Origin: Cymodocea nodosa | Taxonomy: Eukaryota; Streptophyta; Magnoliopsida; Alismatales; Cymodoceaceae | Assembly (NCBI GenBank): GCA_036874045.1 | Contig: CM072336.1 | Span: 25,805,501-25,869,500, forward strand | DNA: 64,000 bases | Direction of reading: 5' to 3' | Shown here: positions 36,997 to 64,000 of the stretch, in pieces | How the letters are laid out: the number at the start of each line of letters is the position of its first letter | How positions within the stretch are numbered: position 1 is the first letter of the stretch | Program-made: the position numbers and the translations under genes | Notes under the pieces: generated by a model | Told to the model about the DNA's origin: nothing | Databases searched by the model: none | The model's input: the letters and a program-made list of their open reading frames with translations, nothing else

Positions 36997-39900
36997 TTAT
37001 ATACAATGGCAGCGCAGTGGTACTGATACTCCCTGAGGTTTTCGCTTCTCCCTGATGATTCCTTCCCTGATCATTGGTAGCTTTTGGAGGACTTTCATCC
37101 ATATGTGGTTGACGGCACCATCGAAAGGTATGGGTCCTTTACCGATGGGACTGCCATTGTCATACTCAAACATGGGCTGCACAAGTGCAAGGTTAGCACG
37201 ATATTTCCTTTTCTGCTCTTTGGAAATGCTCCTCAGGTAATTAACTAGCCAGTTTGGTTGCAAGGCATTGCTGACCGATACAAAGATTGAGAACTCTGTG
37301 TAGTCAGTCATACCCTCGAAAGGTAGTTCAATGCTGTTGCTGACTATAACTGGTATGCAGAGACTAGAAATAGCATCGAATAAGCGACACGAGGTAGGCG
37401 TATCTCCAGCTGGATGCAGGCAGAATTCCGATGATCGCATGCCTCTAATTGACTGTTCACGGCCAACGGCATCAGGGAAGCCTTCTTCTATGATCACATT
37501 AGGTTCTTTAACCAGTAGGTCCCACAACTTCTCACGAATCTGACCCCCCTACAACACCAGGCTAAAGTGAGACTCAAAAGTATAAATCTAATTAGTACAA
37601 GAATTGATGCATTGCCTAACAATGAATGGTTCCTCGGTACAATCCAAATATCCATTATCCAATGAGACGTAGTTGTCTTCCTTGAGATTGAAAGAAAAAC
37701 TGAGCACGAACAAGAAATATGCACATAAAAACCAGACAACCTTTTTATTGCTGAGTTTGCCATACGTTATTTTGGCAATTGTAATAAACTGCTTAAATGG
37801 CCGATGTACATGAGACCACAATGCTGGGCATAACTTGTGTGGCAATACATTCAAACCAAATAATTAATGTAAAAGGGCAACCGTAATCAAATACAACACA
37901 ACATAGTAACAAAAGGTTAACTACCACTTCCTTGAACAGTTTGCCACACAATGACATCCGCCTGAGTGCTATAAATATATATATTGTTAGAAAATATAGT
38001 TTGACATGGTGTAATATTGACTAATAAAAAGATAAGAACTAGTTAATATAAAAAAGACATCTTCACTCATAGCCAATTGATCTTGAATTAAATGTTTATA
38101 TTCCAACATGACTCCAAAGTAGAAAAATTCTAGCGAACTCACATTAACCAAAAAAAAATACTTATAGAATCTAAAAAAATTCATAAGTGAGGAAGAGTAT
38201 TGCAAAATATAGTTTCACATGGATTACTTAAAACAAGAGAATGAGTAACCATTGAAAAAGACATCTTTACTTATAGCCAATTGGTTTTAAATTAAATGTC
38301 CCTATTTCAACATATATATATATACCCTAGATTTATAGCATTTGTTTAGTTGCTTCAATTACAACCAATTTGCTTTATCTTGCACAATCATCCTTTACGA
38401 AGCACTGTAAACTCAAAAAAAATTAAGATTGAGTTATTTCAATGAGAACAATTCAAAGAATAAAGATATGATGCTTAATATTATTTGTTATATATTTTCT
38501 CTATTATTGAAGTACACTGATCTGACTAATTTGTACTTCTTTTGCTGCCCTACCAACTTGATAGTCTAAAAAATGATTCTCATAATGAAATCTAAGTCCC
38601 CACACTCCACACACGCACAACATCTCATTTCCTACCTTGTAGGCCACAAGTTTAATCACATCCTTTTTGAATCTCATCCACCCTTGAGCGTAGATGGATG
38701 CACATTACCTTGACCATATCTCTGAAAATGTGTTCTAGTCAACTAGAAACTCTGCTCAAACAACAATTCATTGGGGGACAACGAAAACAACCCTCTTCTA
38801 CCCACAATAGTACTCTTTTTTTCATTGCCCGAAGAAGACAAGCTTCCCTCTTGACACTCCTCTGTTCGGCACCACCTCCCATATTACATTCCCTCTCCCC
38901 TACCCCACTCTCTCCTTTAGCCTCTCTTTGAGTCCAACATCAGTCTCTTCTACATCTTGGAAAAAAGAACAAGGTGGACACACAAAAGATGGAGATGCAG
39001 TTAGTGTTTGGCGGAAGATCGCATGGAACTATATTCCCACAGAAACCACATTGATGCAGTTCCTCACATCACTTGCTCCTACACCCACACCCACTAGATC
39101 TTTCCCACTTGATATTTTTTGTTCCCTGTGTACACTTAAATCTTATTATTTGTCAACAAGAAATCCAAATTTAAATTAATATTTTATTTTCTATAACAAA
39201 AATGTAAATTGAAATTTCAAAAATTATGAACCAACCCGATGCCTATGCTTAGCCCCTTTGAAGTAAAGAAGTGCATGCCGATCTTCATCTTCTGCCAAAT
39301 CAAGCCTTGGAAGCAAATGGGTATAAGGAATTATGATGTCTTTGATAAGTGAAACTTGAGTGTGCAGTATCATCTGTGAAGAGTTACTCTCAGCTGATAT
39401 AGAGTCCTGTTTGTACCAACCACCAAAATCCACCACTAAGAGGATTGCTGGAGCAATCTCACTCCTTACATGCCACATTGCAACTGGATCTGCCAAACAA
39501 TGCTTCAAGTTTTAAGACAGCCTGACAATCCAAAAATTTGATCACAAGCTGGCTGCAACATTTTCTCAATAATAAAGAGTTATCCTTTCTTTAGAGAATT
39601 TACGTCACATGAAAATGAATTCATCCTTTGAGTAGAATAGTAAATAACAGAAGTATGCAATTATTATAAAGAAAGTGATATAACACTTGAACTATTTAGA
39701 GAAACAACTAACATAATAGATATCGAGCCCTTAAATGGTAGGCAACATAGAAAATCAAATTCATATACAGATTTGTCGATCACCGATCGGCCCCTGCCAG
39801 ATTGCCTAGTCAAGGTAAAAAAGGTGGTATTTTCATATTCAACACCTGTGGTTGGTAACATAACATCTGTCATGAAAAAACAACATTTACTACTACCAAG

Positions 39901-42900: not shown

Positions 42901-44239
42901 CAAGTCCCATTCTTGCATCTTTTATATTTTACAGTGGCCCACGTTAAAGACGACAAAAGAAAACAAAAAAAAAACCTGTTGTGGTCCAGAGTAGTACTCG
43001 ATGATTCCTACGAAGGCAGAACGCCAGAAGGTCAGTGTCCCACCGGCAGGTTCCATACCCTACCGCAGATGCAAGAGATTGCGTATGATACAGAAACGGT
43101 TTGGTCGTTTTAGCAAAAAGAAAAAGATAAAGAGACAGTTTGGTAGCAAAGACAATTTGATTGCTATGCAAAAACCTGTTGCACACTGCATGAACACTCT
43201 CTGACCGATTGATCTTTCAAGGTAGAATCTCTTAAATCATAACAAATGATATCAGAATCAATACATACAGTCCAAATTAAATCTCCAAAAAAGTCACCTA
43301 AGGGCCATGTGATTTCTCCTAAATGCTCATGGTAAGCTATCAACGATCTGTTGAAATTTTAACCTAAAATAGATCGATATGAATAAAAAGATTCATCGAC
43401 TAATTCTATTTGATTGGTAGGAGTTCTCCGACGAAACCTCGACCGTCATGACCGCAAAATACATCCGTCAAGAACAAAAAGAGGGTAACAAATAAAAAAT
43501 AAAAGCTAAAAGAGAAAAGGAAAGGAATGGTTGAAAAAGTAAAGAACGCTCCGCACATACCAGTGAGGACGAAGACGTGATCTCTTCCGCCGGACCTCCT
43601 CCACGCGGCGGACCTTTTCACCCTATCCACGGCCTCCCTCTGCCTCCTGTAATCCCCATTGCCCTCCTTCCTCCGAAACCCGCCCTTCCTCCCCCATCCC
43701 AGCTCCAGTTCCGCGCTCAACGTCGCAAAGAAGGGCACGAACACCACATCAGCGTCCTCCCATTTGTCCACCCTGATCGCCACCGAACCCTTCGCCCTCT
43801 CCTCTTCCTTCGTTTCCAGGTCCCCCAGCAGCCAGTATTCCGCGCTGTACTGCCTTATCAACGGACTTTCCGGGTACCGGAGGAACAAGGGGTTGGACTC
43901 GTTACGATCGGCGGCGCGGCGTTGAAAGGAATCGGGATCGGTCTTGACGCGGGAGTCCGGAGTGGGGAGGGACCAGTAGTGGCGGAGGAGGCCGTAATTG
44001 AGGTACCTGGGGAGCTCGGCGACGTAGACCTTGAGGCGAGGGGTGGGGTGCAGAAAGAGGAAGGGAGGGGAGGAGGAGGAGGAGGAGGAGGAGGAGGGGG
44101 AGGCGGTGGGGGAGGAGTGGAGGAAAAGGAAGGGGATGAGGAAGGCGGTGGCGACGACGGCGAGGAGGAGGAGGAAAATTGAGGGCGATGGAAGAGATTT
44201 GGCGGCGACGGTGGCGGAGGTTTTCATGGTTTCCTTCAT
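36997..44239 (-). CDS. GT47 exostosin-family glycosyltransferase (ARAD1-like), complete, 3 exons
   Basis: Predicted Golgi type II membrane protein acting on cell-wall polysaccharides. Exons on the minus strand: 44239-43561, 39489-39236, 37548-36997, totalling 1485 bp, 494 aa. Introns are 4071 and 1687 bp. A signal anchor (SIFLLLLAVVATAFLIPFLF, about residues 20-39) is followed by a serine run and then the exostosin domain: LKVYVAELPRYLNYGLL, SAEYWLLGDLE, DADVVFVPFFATLS, GGRDHVFVLT, RHALLYFKGAKHRHR. The conserved nucleotide-sugar region has SEFCLHPAGDTPTSCRLFD, then PVIVSNSIELPFEGM. It most resembles plant proteins annotated 'probable arabinosyltransferase ARAD1'; the true donor and acceptor are unknown. 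The first ATG is used; an in-frame ATG at 44227 is an alternative start. The (GAG)n tract coding the serine run (about 44067-44100) may vary in length. Confidence 0.9.
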
Positions 44240-45199
44240 GCTACTTTCGTTGGTCACGAGGAAGAGCGTTGGTTTTTGCCGTATTCACTCTCGTCGAGGT
44301 GACGGGAATGGCGTTGCTTTACAAGCACTCGGGGGGATGTCGCAAATATTCCGGTCTTTTTGCATCATTTTCATCTAGGAAATTCATTATTTTGAAAATA
44401 TCTTTTCTATTTTCAAATTATATCTCCCATCCATATTTGGTTCGGAATGTCTCACCTAAATATTTAGCTCCTTATCCAGCTAGAGTTGATCCCTCGCTTC
44501 ATTTTTGAATACTTTTCACTTTTTTATGATAAAAAGATATTTTTTATTTTTTACAATATATATCATTAAATTTTATATCGTCAATAAAAAATTTTCAAGA
44601 CTACAAAGAAAGATCAAAGTTGATTCAAATAACACTTAAACTCATGTTCTCTGGGTGTGGCGCGTGTGTAGCCTCAAATAAGCAAAAACTTTTCTTTTAG
44701 TGTATACAGATGATCACAAGTTTCCCTAGATGAACAGAACCTGTGGGTAGATTATGATGCAAACCATATACGATGACAAAAGATGAACGACTCTCATACA
44801 CCCATATATGGGTAAGGTGGGTGCGCACTCGATCGTCCGTGTCATTCAAAAATAAAATAAAAAGATCATGCGGTCACAAAACTTTCACGTATATCGTAAC
44901 GCACAAATTGTAAAATTAACGAAGACAAATAAAATAGAATGTGGGCGTTTACGTGTTCCTGCACCCTGGAGTCGACCCGAGGTGACTGGTGCGATCCGCC
45001 TGTCGGTGCTTATATATGTTATTATTTCCCGTAATCCATTTGCACCGTCGACGCCATGTATATTTATATATAAATATGTTGGAACCTGCACGCGCTCCGT
45101 CTGTGTCATTATATATATTCGATGTCTTGAGATAAGATTCTGCTCTATTTATATAACAGTATTTACTTTCATACTTAATTATCCTCGGAATTTCAAAAG

Positions 45200-46924: not shown

Positions 46925-47240
46925 TTTTAATAATAAATCTTTTATTAACTTTGGATGTTTTTACTTTACATCTAGAACATTTTAAGCTCTTTTATATTTT
47001 ATATTTTACTTGCTTTACTCTAGATATTGTTATTTCTTATCTAATATATATATATAAATATTTTATAGTTTCAGACATTATGTTTTGTATTTAAAATTTC
47101 TTACTAAAGCCTCTTATTTTCACTTTAGTTTTAGATGTTATATATTCCATATCTCAACACTCTAATTTCCTTCATATTTTACATTTTTATTTGAAGCACT
47201 TTATTCCTACTTTGATTAACCCACTAGAATTAAGTTCACA
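46925..47240. repeat. Degenerate ~90 bp AT-rich tandem repeat, site 1
   Basis: Repeated phrase TTTAGTTTTAGATGTTATAT, CCATATCT, then TTTATATTTTAC and TTTAAAGCAC. One clear unit starts near 47125, with diverged units before it. The same phrase recurs at 51968-52230 and at 63921-64000. Confidence 0.6.
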
Positions 47241-47744
47241 TACTTTGAGCCTATCTAGGGTTTATTTCTATGCATAAATATGGGATATTGTACAAGACTA
47301 TCTTATAGGTCTCCAACTCTCTTCATTTTAAGTTCATCAATTTGCTCCTCTTTAGGTTTGTTAACTCAACCTTCACTTTTGTATTGCACATATAGATGCA
47401 TTGGCATCTAACATATACACATATTATCACTTATCAAGCATCTAAGAGGTCAACTCTTTGTTAGGCGTGTGAGGTGTCTAACCATTCTTCACATGTAACC
47501 GAAAAACTTAACTTAAACTCTCTAGTTAGGTTAGCTAATCTTATCTTCTTCAAACATTAGATATGAATGTCACTTACATGCATCACATGACATAACATCG
47601 AAAGGTTTTTCTAGTTTACCCATTTAATAGACTTAAGTGATAACTCCTTTTCCAAGCAATGAATTAAGCTGTCGGTCGAATCACTTTGTTGATAGTTACG
47701 TCATAGATGACATTTTTAATTAATTACAGTTTATTTAAGAAAAG

Positions 47745-47885
47745 AAGAATTATCTATAAAATAGCTACAAAGAATAAATTGACATGATGTTTGTTGTTGC
47801 AAATGCATAGGCAATGCATAACAAATTTAAAAATTAAAATTAAAATTAAAATTAAAATAGTCTTCAAGAGAATAAATTTTTTATT
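47745..47885 (-). pseudogene. NLR relic: linker/intron fragment
   Basis: GAATTATCTA, then CTAC.AAGAA.AAATTGA and GATGTTTGTTGT.GCAA match the intron of the decayed minus-strand NLR at about 58680-58735 in the same orientation. The match resumes after an (AATTAA)n insertion with TAG.CTTCAA and ATAAATTT. It carries no NLR coding domain and marks the left end of the NLR neighbourhood. Confidence 0.5.
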
Positions 47886-50519: not shown

Positions 50520-50960
50520 TCCAGTGGGACGTAAGGATATTTTGTGCACGATTTTGATTAAAATAGGAAAAATCAAAATATCATACAATGAAAATCTTGG
50601 CTTTTCTAGATGCGGTAGATTTGTATTATTACAAGAACAAAACTATTTATACAGGAAAAATGAAACTATTTTTACGAATATTTGTTGCAGCAAATACCTT
50701 TAGCCATGTGATATTTGGAGGTCACACACACACACATATACACAAGGAGAAAGAGTGATATTTGGGAACAACGAAGTCTTGGAAATTCTGAAGCCAAGTT
50801 ACTCGACTACCGTGGAGATTGAAGCAATGTTTTCGACACAATGACGGAGATGCAGGTCGTGGAATGCCCGGCCGTGGAGGAATGGTGTCGAGATCGTGTG
50901 CACAACTATCGATGGTAACGAATAGAAAAAGGCAGGTACGAAATTCTATATATAATTTGT
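50520..50960 (+). pseudogene. Mosaic NLR relic with a large internal deletion
   Basis: 50520-50650 is one unit of the 105 bp spacer repeat. 50650-50725 matches the sequence at the end of the minus-strand NLR relic (about 57161-57235). 50766-50834 then matches the NB-ARC codons of the intact gene (54528-54600: ATTCTGAAG, then GGAGATTGAAGCAATGTTTT). 50835-50960 matches its last codons and 3' sequence (55962-56110: GACACA, GAGGAATGGTGTCGAG). About 1.36 kb of the gene, including all the LRRs, is missing at the join. It cannot make an NLR. Confidence 0.75.
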
Positions 50961-51967
50961 CATTTGGTTTTGTTGTGATTTTTTTATATATATAATGGAT
51001 TTAATTACAAGCTCCAACAAAGTGTTTGCATACTCCAGTGGCACCCACGTCAAACCTACTGGACGACGACCGTACGATGTGAATGACTCTGTACGTTTAT
51101 GGGGGCGGTTGTCGTAGGATGCATTTGAATTTAACAAAACCAGCGGTACGTTTTCGCTGCAGGCGGGTAGAGTTGTAGATTTTAGCATCCCCAATGGACG
51201 TGATCTACACGGTAAGAGCGTTGCACCGTCGTCGATGACCACCACCACCAGGTAAAAGACGAAAATGCCCCGTTGTTCATTTATTGGCATGATGGCCAAC
51301 CACGACAGACGCATGAAGTGCCCAAATCATTATCATTGTTATATGTGGAGGTCGATAATTTCATGGCCGCGTCAATGCTCCGAAATATTTTTCATTTTTG
51401 ATTTATATTTTTAAAATGCGCCTGGACACTATTCATATAAATGATATTGATTGATAAATGGTGCTACGGCTGTATCGTGTTGCAAACGGGGGACTCAGAT
51501 TAAAGAAAACACCTGACACCAAGTTAACGTAGTTTTTTAAAATTTGATTTCCTGTTAATCCAGTTGTCAATGAAGAGATGTTTTTCGTTTTTTCCCTTTG
51601 AAGTTAACGAAGGATAGTATTAAAAATCTTTTGTAAAATCACAGAAAGAGAAGAAAATAGTATAAAAAAATTTCACCAAAACAAAAATGATACGGGAGAG
51701 ATCGAAGGTGAAGAAATAGAGGCCGAGGAAGAATTAGATTCCACCGTCATCTTTTATTTCTTATGTTCGTTGCGGTTGCGGTGGCCACGAGGTTGGGGGT
51801 GTCAAGTCCCAGACAGTCATCTGCTTCGAGCAGGAAACGGAACGAAGGAGAATTGACGGAATATAAAATATCAAGACATTAATGTAATAACCTCATCAAA
51901 TGGTGTAGGTTAAAATATTAACGGAAAAGGAAACCATATCTAGAACACATCAAATGTGCATGCATCG

Positions 51968-52230
51968 TATTTTCGCTTTAGTTTTAGATGTTATATATTC
52001 CATATCTAGAACATTCTATTTTCCTTTATATTTTACTTTTTTATTTAAAGCACTTCGGTTTTACTTTGGTTTTAGATATTACATCTTGTATCTCAAATAT
52101 TTTAATTTCTTTCTTTGCTTTAGACCTTTATATATTTTCATTTAAAGTACTTTAGCTTTAAACATCACATCACATCCCATATCCAAAACTTTTAATTCCT
52201 TTTAATATTTTATATTTCTTTTACTTTAAA
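51968..52230. repeat. Degenerate ~90 bp AT-rich tandem repeat, site 2, upstream of the CNL gene
   Basis: About three units, starting near 51973, 52062 and 52151. Each has a TTTAG.TTTAGA phrase, CATATCT or a variant, a TTTTA-rich middle and TTTAAAG.AC.T. The first unit is almost identical to the last 80 bases of the window. Confidence 0.65.
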
Positions 52231-52257: not shown

Positions 52258-52330
52258 AGAGAAATGGTGTGAAGCCCATGACTCCACCACCTTGCCCAAG
52301 ATCGAGATCGTGCGCAGGACTGGGGAATTA
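52258..52330 (+). pseudogene. NLR relic: C-terminal tail just upstream of the intact CNL
   Basis: GTGTGAAGCCCATG, then CTCCACCACCTTG, CCAAG and TCGA matches the last codons of the intact gene (56008-56065, encoding EWCRAHASTTLAKVEI). It is the 3' remnant of an older tandem copy, about 110 bp upstream of the intact start codon. Confidence 0.65.
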
Positions 52331-52442
52331 ATTGATGGATGCGTTGACGACGAATATAATCGATGTGCGATAGATCTTCTTATTAGGAAGGTAAGTAAGG
52401 CAGGGAAGGAAAGAAGGACAGGGAAGGAAAAGGCGATCTACA

Positions 52443-55400
52443 ATGGCGTGGTTGACGACGACTTCCCCAATCTTCCGTTTGGCGCAGCGATTGAAGGACG
52501 ACGACGACCTCCTCTGCATTCCAGATCGAGAGGGCGTGAAGGCGGATGCTTTGTTCTTGATAGAGACCTGTCCGATGATCGAGGCCGTGCTGAAAGATGC
52601 GGAGGAGAGGGAGATACAGGACGAGAGCGTGAAGCGCTGGCTCTGCGATCTCAAGTACCTCGCCGCCGATGCGGAAGACGTTCTTGAGGAGTACGAGTAC
52701 TACTACTCCGCCGCACACAATCATCGTGACGTGGTACGTGTTCCCAACCTTTTTCTAAAAAACTAAATTTACAATTAATTAAAATGGACATTTGTGTTAC
52801 ATTGCAGATGGACAACGTAGACGAAGAAGAGCAACATGTACGAGGAAACCTTGAATGGCTGGGGTCGTACATTCAGCTCTTATCCCAGTACTCTGGTCGT
52901 CCATTCCACTGGACGGAGGGAAGGAACGACGAACTGGGAAGTAAAGGGGGGGAATCTTCAATGGCGCCGTTGAGGATGACGTCCCCAATCATCCGTTTGG
53001 CGCAGCTGTTCAAGGACGTTGCTTCGTTCCTGGAAAATACCTGTCCGCATATCGAGGATAAGCTTGTCGATGTTGATGCGGAGGAGAGCGTCAAGGACTC
53101 GCTCAAGTGCCTCCTCGCCGATGCGGAAGACATCCTTAACCACTACTCCGCCGCACACAATCATGACGTGGTACGTGTTCCCAACATCCTATTTTTTAAA
53201 AAATAAATTTACAAAAAATTAAAAAGGACATTTATGTTACATTGCAGATGAACAACGTAGATGAAGAAGAGCAACATATACAAGGAAGCCTTGAATCACC
53301 CATCAATTTAACTCTTTCTCTAGGACGGGATTTGTGTACGAGGAAAATAAAGAAAAGAAAGGTAAGTGAAAATAAATTCCTTTTGATTAACTTTTTTTCT
53401 AATAGGAAATTTAGCCAAGGAAAGTATCCACGTCTATCAACCCTCCTCGATACCCTTGATATAATTTCCACAAAGTTATTCGCAATATGCCAAATAAAAA
53501 ACTATCACCTTAATGTTGAAGTTTATCAATGTTGAATTTAATTCAAATTCATTCATGGTGGTTGCTTTGTTGATAATTCTTTTCTTTTATTGTTAATGAA
53601 ATATGTAATTAATTACTTAAAGAAGACATCTATCATAAATTGCAGATGGAAGATGTAAAAGCAAAAGTAAAAGAATTGTCCCAAGAGATTCAAAAGATTC
53701 GTAAGAGATTCGATGACATCTACGTGAGAAGGAAAGCCCTCCGATTAAAGGAACATGACGGGGATAGACGTCCAGAGACTCCAATAAGGCCCCCATCTGG
53801 TCATCTTCCGAATGAACCCATCATCTATGGGAGAGACGATGACAAGAAGCATCTACTTAATCTCCTGAAGAACAACAATCCTGAAAATGGCATGGTGATC
53901 GGCTTGATCGGCATCGGTGGTATTGGAAAAACAGCCCTAGCTCAAGTCCTTCACAATGATGAGGAAATCAAAAAGTACTTTAACTGCAAGGCATGGGTTA
54001 CTGTGTCAGAGACATTAAGTGTAGTGCAGATTACAAAAAATATTTTGGAGTCCTTCGTAGGCAAAGATGAAGCTTCCAACTTAACCCAGCTAAGTGTTAT
54101 CCAAGGAAAGTTAGAAAAGCTATTGCAAGGGAAGAAGTTTTTTCTCGTGCTCGACGATATGTGGGAAGAAAAAATATTAAAAAGCTTGGAGTTCCTTTTG
54201 CAAATGGGTTCGATTGGAAGCAAAATCTTGATTACAACGAGGATAACACCAGTTGTCAAGGCCATGGCTACTGCTGCATCAGTAACTATTGAACTAAAGC
54301 CACTTTTGAATGAAGATGGGTGGGACCTATTCCGTAGGCATGCTTTCAATGGTAACAATGAAAATCAGGTGGCATCAGATTTGGTGAGCATTGGCAAGGA
54401 GATTGTGAAAAGGTGCAAAGGCTTACCATTGTTACTAACAGTTCTTGGTGACGACCTTCGAGGTGCTGACAAGAAGAGATGGAGACATATCTTGAACCAT
54501 GAAACATGGGAGATCGAGGATGATAGTGGAAACAACAAAATCTTGGAAATTCTGAAGCTAAGTTACGTTCGTCTACCATGGAGATTGAAGCAATGTTTTC
54601 TCCATTGTTCAGTATTTCCAAAGGATCACGAGTTGCCGTTGGAGACATGGGCTCAATTGTGGGCTGCGTATGGATTGATCGAGACAAAAGGATCACGACA
54701 AGTCTATGATATAGGGAAGGAGTGCATCGACGGTCTTCTTGAACGATCGTTCTTTCAATCATCCGAATACAAAGAAACGATGTTTTTCTCTTTGCACGAT
54801 ATCATGCATGATCTAGCACAATACATTCTTCAGAGTGAGCAATCTCTAATCCAGGTTCCTGTTACTACATTGGAACTCCATCGTACACTAATGGCAGGAA
54901 CATCTCAAACATTAACGTCTGATTATGAACCTATCGTCGGACGAACCCTTTATCACTCTTGGTGCACGTCTGAACAGGGACCAGCAATTGATATGCTTGC
55001 CCAACACTTGAAGCGCTTACGAGTGCTGATACTCCATTGTGTACTAGATGATGAACGGGAGCGCGTGGATGTACCAGACTCAATTGGTGATCTAAAGCAC
55101 CTACGTTACCTACTTCTAGACTATCCATCCTTGAGAAGGTTGCCTGACTCAGTGTGCTCACTCCACAATTTACAAACATTAGACTGCTTTAGTGTCGAAG
55201 AGCTACCGCAAGATATAGGAAGGCTCAAGAGGTTGCAAGATCTCTCTGTCAAGGCGGATAAGTTCCCTCCTGGGATCGGTGAACTAGTCGAGCTTCAAAG
55301 GTTGTGGAATTTTTATGTGATGGATGGAGATGATAAGTTGGCTCATTCATCAGAGTTGAACAAGTTGACGTGGCTTGGAGGAAGCTTAACTATCAAAGGC

Positions 55401-56069
55401 CTCGAAAACATCGATGGGGCTGAGGAAGCTAAATTGTTAGGCTTGTCCAACAAGCCCAACCTCCGATATTTGGCATTATTTTGGAACAACACTTCCTTCG
55501 ATGAAGATGATTATTGTCGACGAAGCGCATCGGTGTTGAGCAATCTGATGCCGCATGACAACCTTGAAAAGCTCCTTATAGGAAAATACGCTGGCGCTCA
55601 ATTCCCATATTGGTTGGGGAGATGCTCGTTTAACAAGTTGACCTCGATGAGGTTGTTGCGTTGTCCCAATTGTGAGGTACTCCCAACGCTTGGTGAACTA
55701 CCATCCTTGAAATACTTGTACATTACAGATATGGAATGCCTGCAATGCATCGATTCCGAGTTTTACGGGAGGAGTCCATTTGATGCGTTTCCAAATCTTG
55801 AATATCTAGAGTTATCATGTATGCATAGTTTGGAAGAGTGGTGGGGAATGGACAAATGCCCCTTCCCTCGACTTTCTAGGCTTGAATTGGATAATTGCCC
55901 TTTACTACACTTCCCCGATGTTGACATGGACAACGAATGCCAAGCTGGCCTTGCTTGTATGTTCGACACAGTTATGCAGATGCAGATCGGGGAATGCCCG
56001 ATCGTGGAGGAATGGTGTCGAGCCCATGCCTCCACCACCTTGGCCAAGGTCGAAATCATGTACAGATAA
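52443..56069 (+). CDS. CC-NB-LRR disease-resistance (NLR) protein with duplicated CC exon
   Basis: Intracellular immune receptor. Proposed exons: 52443-52733, 52808-53170, 53248-53361, 53646-56069, every intron in phase 0, total 3192 bp, 1063 aa. Two Rx_N-type CC units are seen, MAWLTTTSPIFRLAQRL (residue 1) and MAPLRMTSPIIRLAQLF (from 52961). The NB-ARC is intact: P-loop GIGGIGKT (about 345-352), kinase-2 FLVLDDMW (about 422-429), RNBS-B GSKILITTR, GLPL as CKGLPLLL, RNBS-D CSVFPKDHE, MHD as HDIMHDLA (about 643). About 12 irregular LRRs follow. Exon 4 alone is one open frame of over 800 codons. Introns 1 and 2 are near-copies of each other, so unit 2 arose by tandem duplication. Exon 1 could also splice straight to exon 4, and isoforms are possible. 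It probably recognises a pathogen effector, directly or not. Confidence 0.88.
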
Positions 56070-56606
56070 TGGTGGGAAATAGAAAAAAGGTAGGAAATTC
56101 TACATATAATTGGTCTTTTTTCTTATTCTATATATATCCTCTCAATTTTTTGGTTTTGTGTTGATCGGCTGCGTGCAGAATTGGAGGAGTGGAACAAGGA
56201 GAAGGGGGACGACAGCTGAATAGAAGAGAAGAACTGCCTCCAAAAAGCCCTAAGTTGTGCGTTTATTTGAGTTGAAATAATTGCAACTAATCCCTTGAAG
56301 ATGCTTGTAATTATCGACATTTTATTTCTGCATTAAAAGTTTAACACTACAACTATAGAAATAAAGATCAGAAACAAAATGGTAAATATAGTTTGTGATG
56401 CCAAGATGCTTCCCAACCTTGATCTACTAAAATATGATTCAATTTGTTCATTTAAATGACATTAAAGTGTAAATTACGTGCAAGTCCCTTAAAAAATATC
56501 TGTCATGTAAAACACTACAAGAACTTTAATAATTCCACCATAAGTCCTTAACAAGCATGAATAACAACAATGAACAATCTCACAAATTGACACACGACAC
56601 CATACA

Positions 56607-57160
56607 TTTTTATTATAACATGAAAGGACAATTGGTATATGATTTTGATTAAAATAAGAAAAATCAAAAGATTATACGATAAGAATCTTCACTTTCATTG
56701 ATGCTATAAATTTTTATTATAACATGAAAGGACCATTTGTACACAATTTTGATTAAATAAGAAAAATCAAAACATCAAGCAACGAAAATCTTGACTTTTA
56801 TTGATGCTGTACAAATTTATCATAAGATGAAAAGATCAGACAATAAGGATTTTGATTAAAATAAGAAAAATCAAAAGATCAGACAATGAAAATCTTGACT
56901 TTCACTTTCCTCGATGTTGTACATTTCTATCATAACACGATAAGATTATTTGCGCGCAATGTTAGTTAAGATAAGAAAAATTAAAAGATCAGACAATAAG
57001 GATTTTGACTTTGATCGATGCAAATACTTTTTTATTAGAACATGAAAGGATATTTGTGCACTGTTTTGATTAAAATAAGAAAAATCGAAATATCAGACAA
57101 TAAAAATCTTGGCTTTTCCAGACGCTGTAGATTTTTATCATAACAAGAACAAACTATTTA
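56607..57160. repeat. ~105 bp tandem repeat array, about 5 units, between the two NLRs
   Basis: Units start near 56607, 56711, 56816, 56924, 57028 and 57132 (the last partial), period 104-108 bp. Each contains TTTTTATCATAACATGAAAG, then TTTTGATTAAAATAAGAAAA, CAGACAATAAAAATCTTGAC and GATGCTGTA. One stray unit lies at about 50545-50650. No coding potential. The array fills the spacer between the convergent NLR 3' ends. Confidence 0.85.
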
Positions 57161-57185
57161 TACAGGAAAAATAAAACTATCATCT

Positions 57186-59056
57186 TTACGAATATTTGTT
57201 GTTGTTGCAGCAAATATCTTTAGCCATGAGATGTTTAGGTATAAAAGATTTTGGCATTTGTTCCTGCCCCCACCACTCTCTCAAACTACTCATTTCAGTC
57301 ATTCGTAATGCTTTAAGAGACGGCAATGCCTTGAATGGATTCGTCCTATAGAACTCAGGACCGATGCATTCTAGGCATTCCATGCCCAGTAGTCCCAACC
57401 CAGAATAGGAAGACAACGTCACAGATCGGCTTCCCAACCAATTTGGGAATCGAGCACCAAGGTAGCCGTATATTACAAGAGATCTAAGGTCATCATGTGG
57501 CTTAAGTTTGTCCAACACCAATGTGCTTAGTTGATCATCATACTCCTTGAAGCCATCCCATCATAAATACAGCTATTGGAAGTAGGGCCTACTGGACAAG
57601 CTCAATAGTTTAACTTCCTCATTGTCATTGACGTTGTTGAGATGATAGATTTCCAACTCACAAACGAGCACAACTATTGCCTCCTCTTGCTGCCACATCA
57701 AACGTTTCTAACTCGGTAGGCCACTTGTCGACCTCGACAATGAGATGCTGCAACTTCTTGAGCCTTCTGAATCTGGAATAGCTTTCAAGAAAATATGTTT
57801 GAATATCAACACTCGTAAACGCTTCAAGCGTTGGGCAATCATATCGATTATTGATACTTGTTTGGACAAGTGGAAAAACTGATTAAGAAAGGTTTGTCCA
57901 GCAATAGGTTCATAATAACACCTTAATGTTTGAGATGTTCCTGCCATTAGCCTTCGATGAAGGTCCAATGTGTTGATATGATATTTGGTTAGAGACTGCT
58001 CACTTTCGAGAATGTACTGTCCCAGATCATGCACGATATCTCTGACTTGTTGTAATCCTTCTGTCTCAATCAATCCTCGCACAGCCCAAAATCGAGCCGA
58101 TTCATCCATTTCGAAGTTGTAATCCTTTGGAAATACTGAACAGCAGAGAAAACATGGCTTCAGTCTCCATGGTAGGTGAACATAACTTCGCTTCAAAATT
58201 TCCATGGCATAGTTGTCCCCACTGATCTCCCATGTTTCCTTATTTAAGATCTCTTCTTGTCACCACCAACTTCTCGAAGGGTGTCACCAAGAACCTTCAG
58301 CAACAAGGGAATGCCTCTGCACTTTTGCATGATCTCCCTGCCCAAATCCGTCGCCACACAATCATCTTCGGTAGCCTTGGCCACTTGACACCTTGGAACC
58401 CACCGAACTTGTGTGATGAAGATTTTGTTTCCCATGGAACCCATTCGCGAAAGGAACCCAAAGCTATCCAATTTTTCTTCGCAATTGACTTACTAACTTC
58501 TCTTGGATAACACTCAATTGGGTCAAGTTTGAATCTTCCCCGCCAACATACTCATATTTATCCAAGAGCCCGTTGTTCTTTAGGAGATCCACCAGATTCT
58601 TCTTGTCCATGTCTCTCCCGTAGATGATGGGTTCGTTTGCAAGATGACCAACCTGGGGCCCTACCAACAAAAGAAAAGATCGAATTATCTACAAAGTAAC
58701 TACCAAGAACAAATTGATGAGATGTTTGTTGTCGCAAGGTAGACTTCAAAAACATAAATTTATTGTTGTGCAAACAAAATGTATGGTGTAATCGATGGTA
58801 ATAAATTTTGCTACCAATAATGTTGAAATGATCGTATGCCTCGTCACGACCACATCCTGTAGAAGACGCTTCTTCCTCTCCCTCGAGGTGGTGCTCGTAC
58901 TTCTCCAGGAGGTCTTCCGATGCAGCCTCGATCCTCGGACACATCTCCGCCAGAAACACAGGCACGTCTTCCGGCACGCCCTCTCGGTCCGCACGCAGGC
59001 GGACGCCGTCGTTCAAGCGCTGCGCCAAACGGGAGATTGAAGACATTGTCCGCCAT
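57186..59056 (-). pseudogene. Decayed CC-NB-LRR gene, opposite strand
   Basis: Homologous to the intact CNL in order on the minus strand. The CC start MSSISRLAQRLNDG (near 59046) is followed by FLAEMCPRIEA joined to EDLLEKYEH, so about 40 CC codons are missing. Next come GHLANEPIIYGRDMDKKN (58640s) and then SNLTQLSVIQEKL, with the whole P-loop and RNBS-A lost between LLKNN and GEDSNL. Then follow KCRGIPLLLKVLG (58300s), SYVHLPWRLKPCFLCCSVFP (58180s), MIAQRLKRLRVLI, and LRR pieces such as GARFPNWLG (57440s). The frame changes several times and the first LRRs are missing. Without a P-loop it cannot bind ATP normally, so it is not a working NLR. Confidence 0.9.
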
Positions 59057-62465: not shown

Positions 62466-63000
62466 TAGTCAAGGCATGGGCTTCACACCATTCACTCAAT
62501 TGCGGACACGCGCAGACGCTCATGAATCGAACTGGGTCAAACATACAAGCGAAGCGTCATTTTAATCATAATTGTGTAAAAATGGTCAGATCGATCTTCT
62601 GATTATTGTAAAGATCTATGGTATGAAGATCGTGAATGATGATACAAATTACGTAATTGGATTACTCTAGTTGTTTTTCTAAAATAGTTGATTCTAAGTT
62701 AATCTAATCGTTACTAGAAAGTTTTGTTAATTAATAATATAACAACATCGAATAATGAACTGTAATGATTATTACAGGGAAAATTTTAAGGTTAAAATAT
62801 TAACGGAAAAGGAAACCATATAACCATATTAATGCTTAACACCAACGTTGGTTGATAATCACCTTCCTCGGCGTAACACCACTCTAAAGTTAGATCTTGC
62901 AGTTACGGCCAGTTGGACAAACTCAAACAGTTTAAATGTCTTCAACGTTTGCAACTCGACCAGTTCCCCGATCTCGACAGGGAACTTGCACACCTCGTTC
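62466..63000 (-). pseudogene. NLR relics: one LRR piece and a C-terminal tail
   Basis: On the minus strand 63000-62900 reads CKFPVEIGELVELQTLKTF, homologous to DKFPPGIGELVELQRL of the intact CNL. 62548-62466 reads MFDPVRF, then CPQLSEWCEAHA, homologous to its tail MFDTVMQ and EEWCRAHA. They are in gene order but only about 330 bp apart, so most LRRs between are lost. 62787-62823 also repeats the upstream element at 51900-51939. Confidence 0.75.
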
Positions 63001-63003
63001 ACA

Positions 63004-63920
63004 ATGAGACTCTATGAATAAAACTCTATTATTATCTCTAGACTTCCTTCGTCTAACCTTAGCCAATTTATATATTCTATTTTTCTCTTCTTTTGTGTTG
63101 AAACTATTATATAATTTCTTGTAGATTTGATTTTTTAACTTCTTTGATAATTTTCTTACTATTTTCTTTTACTAATTTTTTGTCATTTCTACATTTATCG
63201 TAGGTTTTATAACATTCTTTTCTACGTTTTCATTTTGCCACCACCAACTTTTTTTTTACTTGACAGAGATATCTATTGTCATGCTTTAAGAGAAAAGAAA
63301 ATGACAATGGCCATAATATTTAAGAGAAACAATCACACTTAAATAAAATCAAAAGCACATAAAAACTCTACCATTTAATATTATAAGGTTGATATCTGCT
63401 AAAAGAGGTATAACAGTAAGAAGCAAGGTAATAATTAAAAATTAAGGTTTCATAGATAAAACTCGTAACAGAAAAAGTGAAAATTTCTTTATAATCTAAC
63501 CCCTAACAGAATTACACAAGAGGGGTATTATTCACAAATATTTGTTCATTCACAAAAATGCAATCACATTTGACAAAAGCTAACTGACACAACCTATCCT
63601 GCTAACACTCACTCACCCTAGGGGTTTGCGAACCCAGTTAACCAGGAGGGGAACGTGTAGACTAGTCTATTACGACGAATACAGTTTTTTTATTAGGACT
63701 AACGTAATCCATGACGATTGGCTAATTTATTATGACAGAAGAATTACAATTTGCACATGTATATGTCACTATTGTTCGCGCATGTAGCTTGAATGGTATG
63801 TATATTCTTATTGTAATGGAAGTTGTTCCCATTACGATGCATGCATCTATCGTAATACATTTGAAGATAATAAAAGGTGGTCTATCACCATTGTCATGTA
63901 CATGTCACTATGGTTCGTGC
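63004..63920. other. AT-rich spacer at the right side
   Basis: No gene, RNA or element recognised. Confidence 0.45.
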
Positions 63921-64000
63921 ACGCATCGTATTTTCACTTTAGTTTTAGATGTTATATATTCCATATCTAGAACATTCTATTTTCCTTTATATTTTACATT
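63921..64000. repeat. ~90 bp AT-rich tandem repeat, site 3, cut by window edge
   Basis: From GCATCGTATTTTCACTTTAG to the window end the sequence is nearly identical to 51958-52045, which lies about 400-490 bp upstream of the intact CNL start. It is on the same strand and cut off by the window end. Confidence 0.75.

Follow-up and report, generated by a model that had tools for sequence, protein, structure and literature searches.

An in-frame partial duplication of the coiled-coil exon in a predicted NLR gene of Cymodocea nodosa

A predicted NLR gene in a 64,000-nucleotide stretch of Cymodocea nodosa contig CM072336.1 (the window; positions below count from its first letter) carries, between its first and last exons, a second copy of the exon that encodes helices 1-3 of its coiled-coil (CC) domain. 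The locus therefore raises the question of whether the gene encodes a receptor with two CC domains, or an ordinary receptor in which part of one CC has been duplicated. An earlier note on this DNA took the former direction, describing two Rx_N-like units whose exons could be joined to make NLRs with one CC, two CCs or neither.

By its open exons and its Pfam matches to Rx_N, NB-ARC, WH_DRP and LRR models, the gene is predicted to be an intact CC-NB-ARC-LRR (CNL) gene of four exons, E1 to E4, on the plus strand, as the earlier note had held for an intact NLR. E1 (52443-52733, 97 codons) encodes helices 1-3 of an Rx_N-type CC. Intron 1 (52734-52807, 74 nt, GTACGT...TTGCAG) separates it from E2 (52808-53170), which is open across 121 codons. 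Intron 2 (53171-53247, 77 nt) is a near-copy of intron 1 and leads to E3 (53248-53361, 38 codons), which ends in AAG/GTAAGT. Intron 3 (53362-53645, 284 nt) precedes E4 (53646-56069, 807 codons and a stop), which carries helix 4 of the CC, the NB-ARC, the winged helix and the LRR region. Each exon has a length divisible by three and no internal stop, all introns run from GT to AG, and all three are in phase 0, as had been stated for every boundary. It had also been stated that any exon could join a later one without a frame break; all four splice combinations leading from E1 to E4 are free of internal stops, with products of 904, 1025, 942 and 1063 residues. The 904-residue form joins E1 directly to E4, while the 1063-residue product (the full form) uses all four exons. 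The boundary motifs reported before are likewise present: E1 ends in AAHNHRDV and the second unit in AAHNHDV, each followed by a GTACGTGTTCCC donor, and the three acceptors all read ATTGCAG/ATG, the exons opening with M-[DNE]-[ND]-V.

Within E4, Pfam identifies NB-ARC (163 bits), WH_DRP (65.5), LRR_R13L1-DRL21 (128.3) and LRR_14 (110.9), and the exon contains strings that we take to be the P-loop, kinase 2, RNBS-B, GLPL and MHD motifs. An N-terminal CC of the Rx_N type, an NB-ARC with its motifs and an LRR region, the features by which a CNL is recognized, are all found. The MADA motif, an N-terminal feature of a subset of CNLs, was not seen on inspection by eye of the first 20 residues.

E1 and its surroundings occur twice in tandem. 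Unit A (52402-52856) and the block that contains unit B (52917-53296) each run from the leader through E1 and the intron into the following exon, of which they take in the first 49 nt, and the repeat scores far above chance (blastn E=1e-55 and 2e-20); the first of these values rules out a chance resemblance of the two units. The leader part of unit A (52402-52442, plus strand) is identical to 52917-52960 at 33 of 41 aligned positions, with 3 gap positions in addition. Introns 1 and 2, which the earlier note called near-copies, agree at 66 of 74 aligned positions with 3 gap positions besides, and the starts of E2 and E3 agree at 44 of 49 nt. In the CC part, 70 codons of E1 align with unit B itself (52961-53170, plus strand, a shortened E1 copy of 70 codons), and, according to the alignment used, 43 or 45 of the 70 encoded residues are the same; tblastn reports 46% identity over 94 columns (E=5e-12). 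E2 consists of the exon-start copy, the copied leader and unit B, and what was once 5' leader would now be read within it as protein. The rest of E3, beyond its first 49 nt, showed no relative in comparisons within the window. The leader upstream of E1 also holds an 18-base tandem repeat (52386-52430, 2.5 copies), which overlaps a consensus donor, AAG/GTAAGT, at 52391.

The acceptor before E4 is also related to the other two, though more remotely. The tail of intron 3 together with the start of E4 aligns to the corresponding stretch of intron 1 and E2 with a score of 51, and to that of intron 2 and E3 with a score of 48, and none of 500 shuffles reached either score; the intron 3 tail is identical to each of the other two tails at 27 of 40 bases. 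Past the acceptor, comparison of the E2 and E4 starts showed no homology (254 of 500 shuffles reached the score). When the E3 tail and the intron 3 head were compared with the 5' leader, 22 of 500 shuffles reached the score, and we do not regard homology there as demonstrated; for intron 3 as a whole against intron 1 the figure was 9 of 500.

All boundaries are in phase 0 because one phase-0 intron was copied. We therefore rejected this regularity as independent evidence of function, since duplication of a single such intron suffices to produce it. The independent features, we infer, are the joining in frame of the second exon start to the copied leader, the stop-free passage through that leader, and the new donor of E3. 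The stop-free passage spans 51 codons and has a probability of about 0.13 under a first-order Markov model. For the open frame of E2 as a whole the Markov model gives about 0.01, although much of that openness is inherited.

Alignments to known structures place the CC of this gene across the E1/E4 junction, so that E1 alone is not a whole CC. E1 matches Rx_N with 60.6 bits (Pfam cut-off 27.7) over residues 29-89, and among eight proteins tested it was the only one to match at E<=1. Its single-sequence structural model (pLDDT 70.7) has three helices of at least 4 residues; fold comparison of the model returned 86 matches at E<=10, none of them at E<=0.001, with no NLR among the 50 matches listed, and is thus uninformative. 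When E1 is joined to E4, eight of ten PDB rows align through the junction, including NRC2, Sr35 and RPP13-like protein 4, which we take to be ZAR1; against NRC2, query residues 13-218 are aligned to chain residues 13-215. The first residues of E4 fall in these alignments on what we take, in numbering the CC helices, to be the helix-4 region. In the PDB alignments of both E1+E4 and the full form, helix 4 was found only in E4. E2 and E3 therefore split one CC rather than add a complete one, and a product that includes them has helix 3 separated from helix 4 by 159 additional residues. The match to ZAR1 scores 46.7 bits for E1+E4 and 41.7 bits for the full form, in which it falls into two stretches, of 7.7 and 32.2 bits. 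Unit B joined to E4 scores 37.1 bits, and the best (significant) stretch begins at residue 78, in helix 4. The Rx_N score, 59.5 bits for E1+E4 and 60.0 bits for the full form, hardly depends on the form because the matched stretch lies in E1. The earlier scheme of one CC, two CCs or neither thus had the anatomy wrong: with a CC that spans E1 and E4, splicing of E1 to E4 would give one canonical CC.

Unit B has 70 codons to the 97 of E1, a loss of 27 codons or net 81 nt. Pfam reports no Rx_N row at E<=1 for unit B alone or for E2 alone, and none at E<=10 for unit B with E4 or for E2 with E3, a search in which the HMMER filters drop most weak matches. The joined N terminus of E1, E2, E3 and E4 (308 aa) contains a single Rx_N stretch, located in E1. 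Of the two Rx_N-like units described in the earlier note, therefore, the second is indeed related to the first, by the tblastn match, but lacks an Rx_N match of its own. A tandem CC-CC-NLR has two recognizable CC domains; Pfam recognizes only one here, and weak PDB alignments run contrary to that result. For the full form, three of twelve PDB rows (one of NRC2 and two of NRC2a, at 21.3-22.1 bits) match best over a stretch that begins in unit B rather than in E1 and runs from residue 190-191 through E3 into E4. For unit B with E4, only two of eleven rows extend into unit B (both NRC2a, 22.6-22.8 bits), and these begin at its residue 18. From these alignments it follows that unit B keeps some CC likeness. 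Compared alone with PDB sequences, E2 gave seven rows with E values of 0.13-0.42, no NLR among them, and its single-sequence model is poor (pLDDT 54.6), with two helices in unit B, not three.

Ka/Ks between E1 and unit B is 1.34 (bootstrap 0.71-3.03) or 1.15 (0.55-3.04) over 70 aligned codons, a small sample; both intervals include 1, and no purifying selection between the copies was detected. In the MAFFT alignment, and likewise in two of six pairwise settings, the gaps of unit B relative to E1 measure 45, 12, 9, 12 and 3 nt. All are multiples of three, which suggests translation after the duplication. In the other four settings some gaps fall out of frame, in the poorly aligned, divergent middle; as proof of selection the in-frame gaps are weakened accordingly, with only two of six pairwise settings in accord, although MAFFT agrees. 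The in-frame codon score of unit B (0.30) is near that of E1 (0.37). The link before unit B scores 0.18, and E3 0.15 (0.18 in frame 1 of E3). Best-frame scores of non-coding sequence are 0.18 for the 5' flank, 0.17 for the 3' flank and 0.13 for intron 1, so that codon usage is unusable as coding proof for E3 and the link, which do not outscore the flanks in their best frames.

The surroundings suggest how such a copy could arise. An NLR pseudogene on the minus strand (about 57186-59049) faces the intact gene, its body broken over several frames. Its order is an E1-like exon, intron-3-like sequence and E4-like sequence; it lacks about 80 nt of the CC, with no counterpart to E1 positions 52586-52671, and it also lacks the start of E4. 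The stretch that follows its E1-like exon resembles intron 3 (none of 500 shuffles reached the score), and in the same stretch no match was detectable to unit B (336 of 500), the first 153 nt of E2 (230 of 500), E3 (246 of 500) or intron 1 (139 of 500). This comparison supports E1-intron-E4 as the older layout, with the reservation that the E4 start is missing from the pseudogene and that intron 1 finds no match there. The intron-3-like piece may be a dispersed repeat, because it also resembles a sequence at about 47703-47802. Further NLR relics at 50746-50965, 52259-52312 and 62467-62553 lead us to regard the locus as an NLR cluster undergoing turnover, a setting in which unequal exchange is expected. 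The relic at 52259-52312 (plus strand), from an NLR 3' end, has 85% identity to 56007-56060 at the end of E4 and lies about 130-185 bases upstream of the start codon. A mosaic relic occupies 50533-50965: its first part (50533-50716) matches 57046-57236 (85%), and the short NLR pieces that follow (50746-50965) come from the NB-ARC/winged-helix region and the LRR end. Short LRR relics lie on the minus strand at 62467-62553 and 62943-62987.

Other features of the window were recorded along with these. A minisatellite with about five copies of a 104-base unit (56602-57149) lies between the two convergent NLR sequences, and a dispersed repeat, up to 96% identical, is found upstream of the gene (51956-52071) and at 47109-47217 and 63917-64000. 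On the minus strand, an exon at 59148-59567 matches the final part of the Iso_dh profile (isocitrate/isopropylmalate dehydrogenase, 54 bits), and two open frames (36997-37548 and 43406-44284) correspond to opposite ends of the exostosin GT47 profile and may belong to one gene with a long intron.

Which product the gene makes depends on splicing. Sites were scored with an approximate splice matrix and ranked within 52300-53700 (67 donors, 91 acceptors). The donors at 52734, 53171 and 53362 rank 4, 3 (the first two with tied scores) and 1, and the acceptors at 52807, 53247 and 53645 rank 3, 1 and 4. Among all GT sites of the window, 3.7%, 3.7% and 0.1% score as high as these donors, and among all its AG sites 1.4%, 0.8% and 2.0% score as high as these acceptors. 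Inclusion of E2 and E3 in mRNA is plausible on this basis. Those same sites, and the intact frame, weigh against a reading in which E2 and E3 are intronic relics that never enter mature mRNA, E1 being spliced to E4 across a 912-nt intron or transcripts starting at 53646 without helices 1-3. That reading overlaps with our preferred explanation, so that the odds given here do not sum to one, and it draws on the ZAR1 match, which is best for E1+E4 among the three joined forms, and on the leader donor at 52391, which ties with the E3 donor for top score and could bypass E1. We consider it unlikely. An optional cassette, with E2 and E3 spliced in or out to yield a compact CC (E1-E4) or one whose assembly is altered by the insertion, and thereby active and damped forms, is a little more doubtful. 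Its donors suit it, since that of E2 equals that of E1 in sequence and score and that of E3 shares the top score of 67, and all four combinations are open; but such openness is expected from the copying of one phase-0 intron, and the lack of detectable purifying selection between the copies counts against it.

A true tandem-CC receptor, with the 1063-residue form as main product and unit B as a second working CC, is improbable. Unit B is clearly related to E1 and has kept its frame, its weak alignments through E4 to NRC2 and NRC2a fit the idea, and there are predicted CC-CC-NLRs in Marchantia, one of which (Mp3g09210) has an internal CC that, alone among those of two such receptors, triggered cell death (PMC11218826). 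Set against this are the missing Rx_N row, the 27 lost codons, the two rather than three helices in a poor model, and the confinement of helix 4 to E4. Most improbable of all would be a splice-selectable CC, in which helix 4 of E4 pairs either with helices 1-3 of E1 or with their shortened counterparts in unit B, giving two CC heads and a resistosome tuned by exon choice.

We favor, with a probability of roughly 0.6, an ordinary CNL whose single CC is split by a phase-0 intron and which has undergone a frame-preserving partial duplication, the copy not being a second working CC. Recombination in the NLR cluster would have copied about 500 bases (leader, E1, intron and the beginning of the exon after it), the copy coming to lie between E1 and E4. 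The copy would be readable as an in-frame cassette, E2 and E3, because the copied intron was in phase 0. It would since have lost 27 codons, and is probably decaying. The working CC most likely comes from E1 and E4, with E2 and E3 either skipped or translated into 159 residues that the CC tolerates between its helices 3 and 4; in either case they would form no second working CC. The anatomy, the duplication, its frame and the absent Pfam Rx_N match of the copy are direct observations, and the order of events, the dominant splice form and the copy's lack of function are deduced from them.

Should E2 and E3 be used, the gene would offer a natural test of whether a CC can accommodate a long insert separating helix 3 from helix 4, and would illustrate how NLRs come by N-terminal variation through a phase-0 intron. 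If they are unused, it captures an NLR cluster in the course of turnover and cautions that a false CC-CC-NLR may be called by gene predictors.

Tandem CCs in one NLR have already been reported in the literature. In Marchantia polymorpha, Mp3g09180 and Mp3g09210 are predicted tandem CC-CC-NLRs and, like the gene described here, have two CC-derived units in one predicted NLR (PMC11218826). As far as the available text of that paper goes, each Marchantia unit was tested singly as a CC, whereas the second unit here has no Rx_N row and helix 4 occurs once. A CC-CC-NBS-LRR class in perennial ryegrass has the same domain order in a flowering plant, but the consulted portion of its source lists the sub-class only, without exon anatomy (PMC2694799). 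Rice Pb3, another flowering-plant NLR, has a 'double coiled-coil region', in a description that, in the part available, includes neither exon anatomy nor a duplication (PMC9698523). Wheat BED-NLRs such as Yr7 are described, in the accessible text, as carrying an additional domain ahead of the NB-ARC and behind an N-terminal CC-like region (exon-1 construct, aa 1-100), and NLRs with two BED domains are mentioned there too; that additional piece is a zinc finger, while in the present gene it was copied from the CC exon of the gene itself (PMC7761493). Another wheat study describes, in the part of the source consulted, a foreign domain fused at an NLR intron (PMC5819176). With the terms searched, the accessible portions of the open full-text literature yielded no description of a CC exon duplicated beside its own intron. 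ZAR1, Sr35 and NRC2 have one CC before the NB-ARC and LRR, and the joined E1+E4 product resembles them, aligning across its junction. Unlike these three, the present gene has two additional exons, both in frame, that lie between the sequences for helix 3 and helix 4, and one of them contains a shortened copy of E1.
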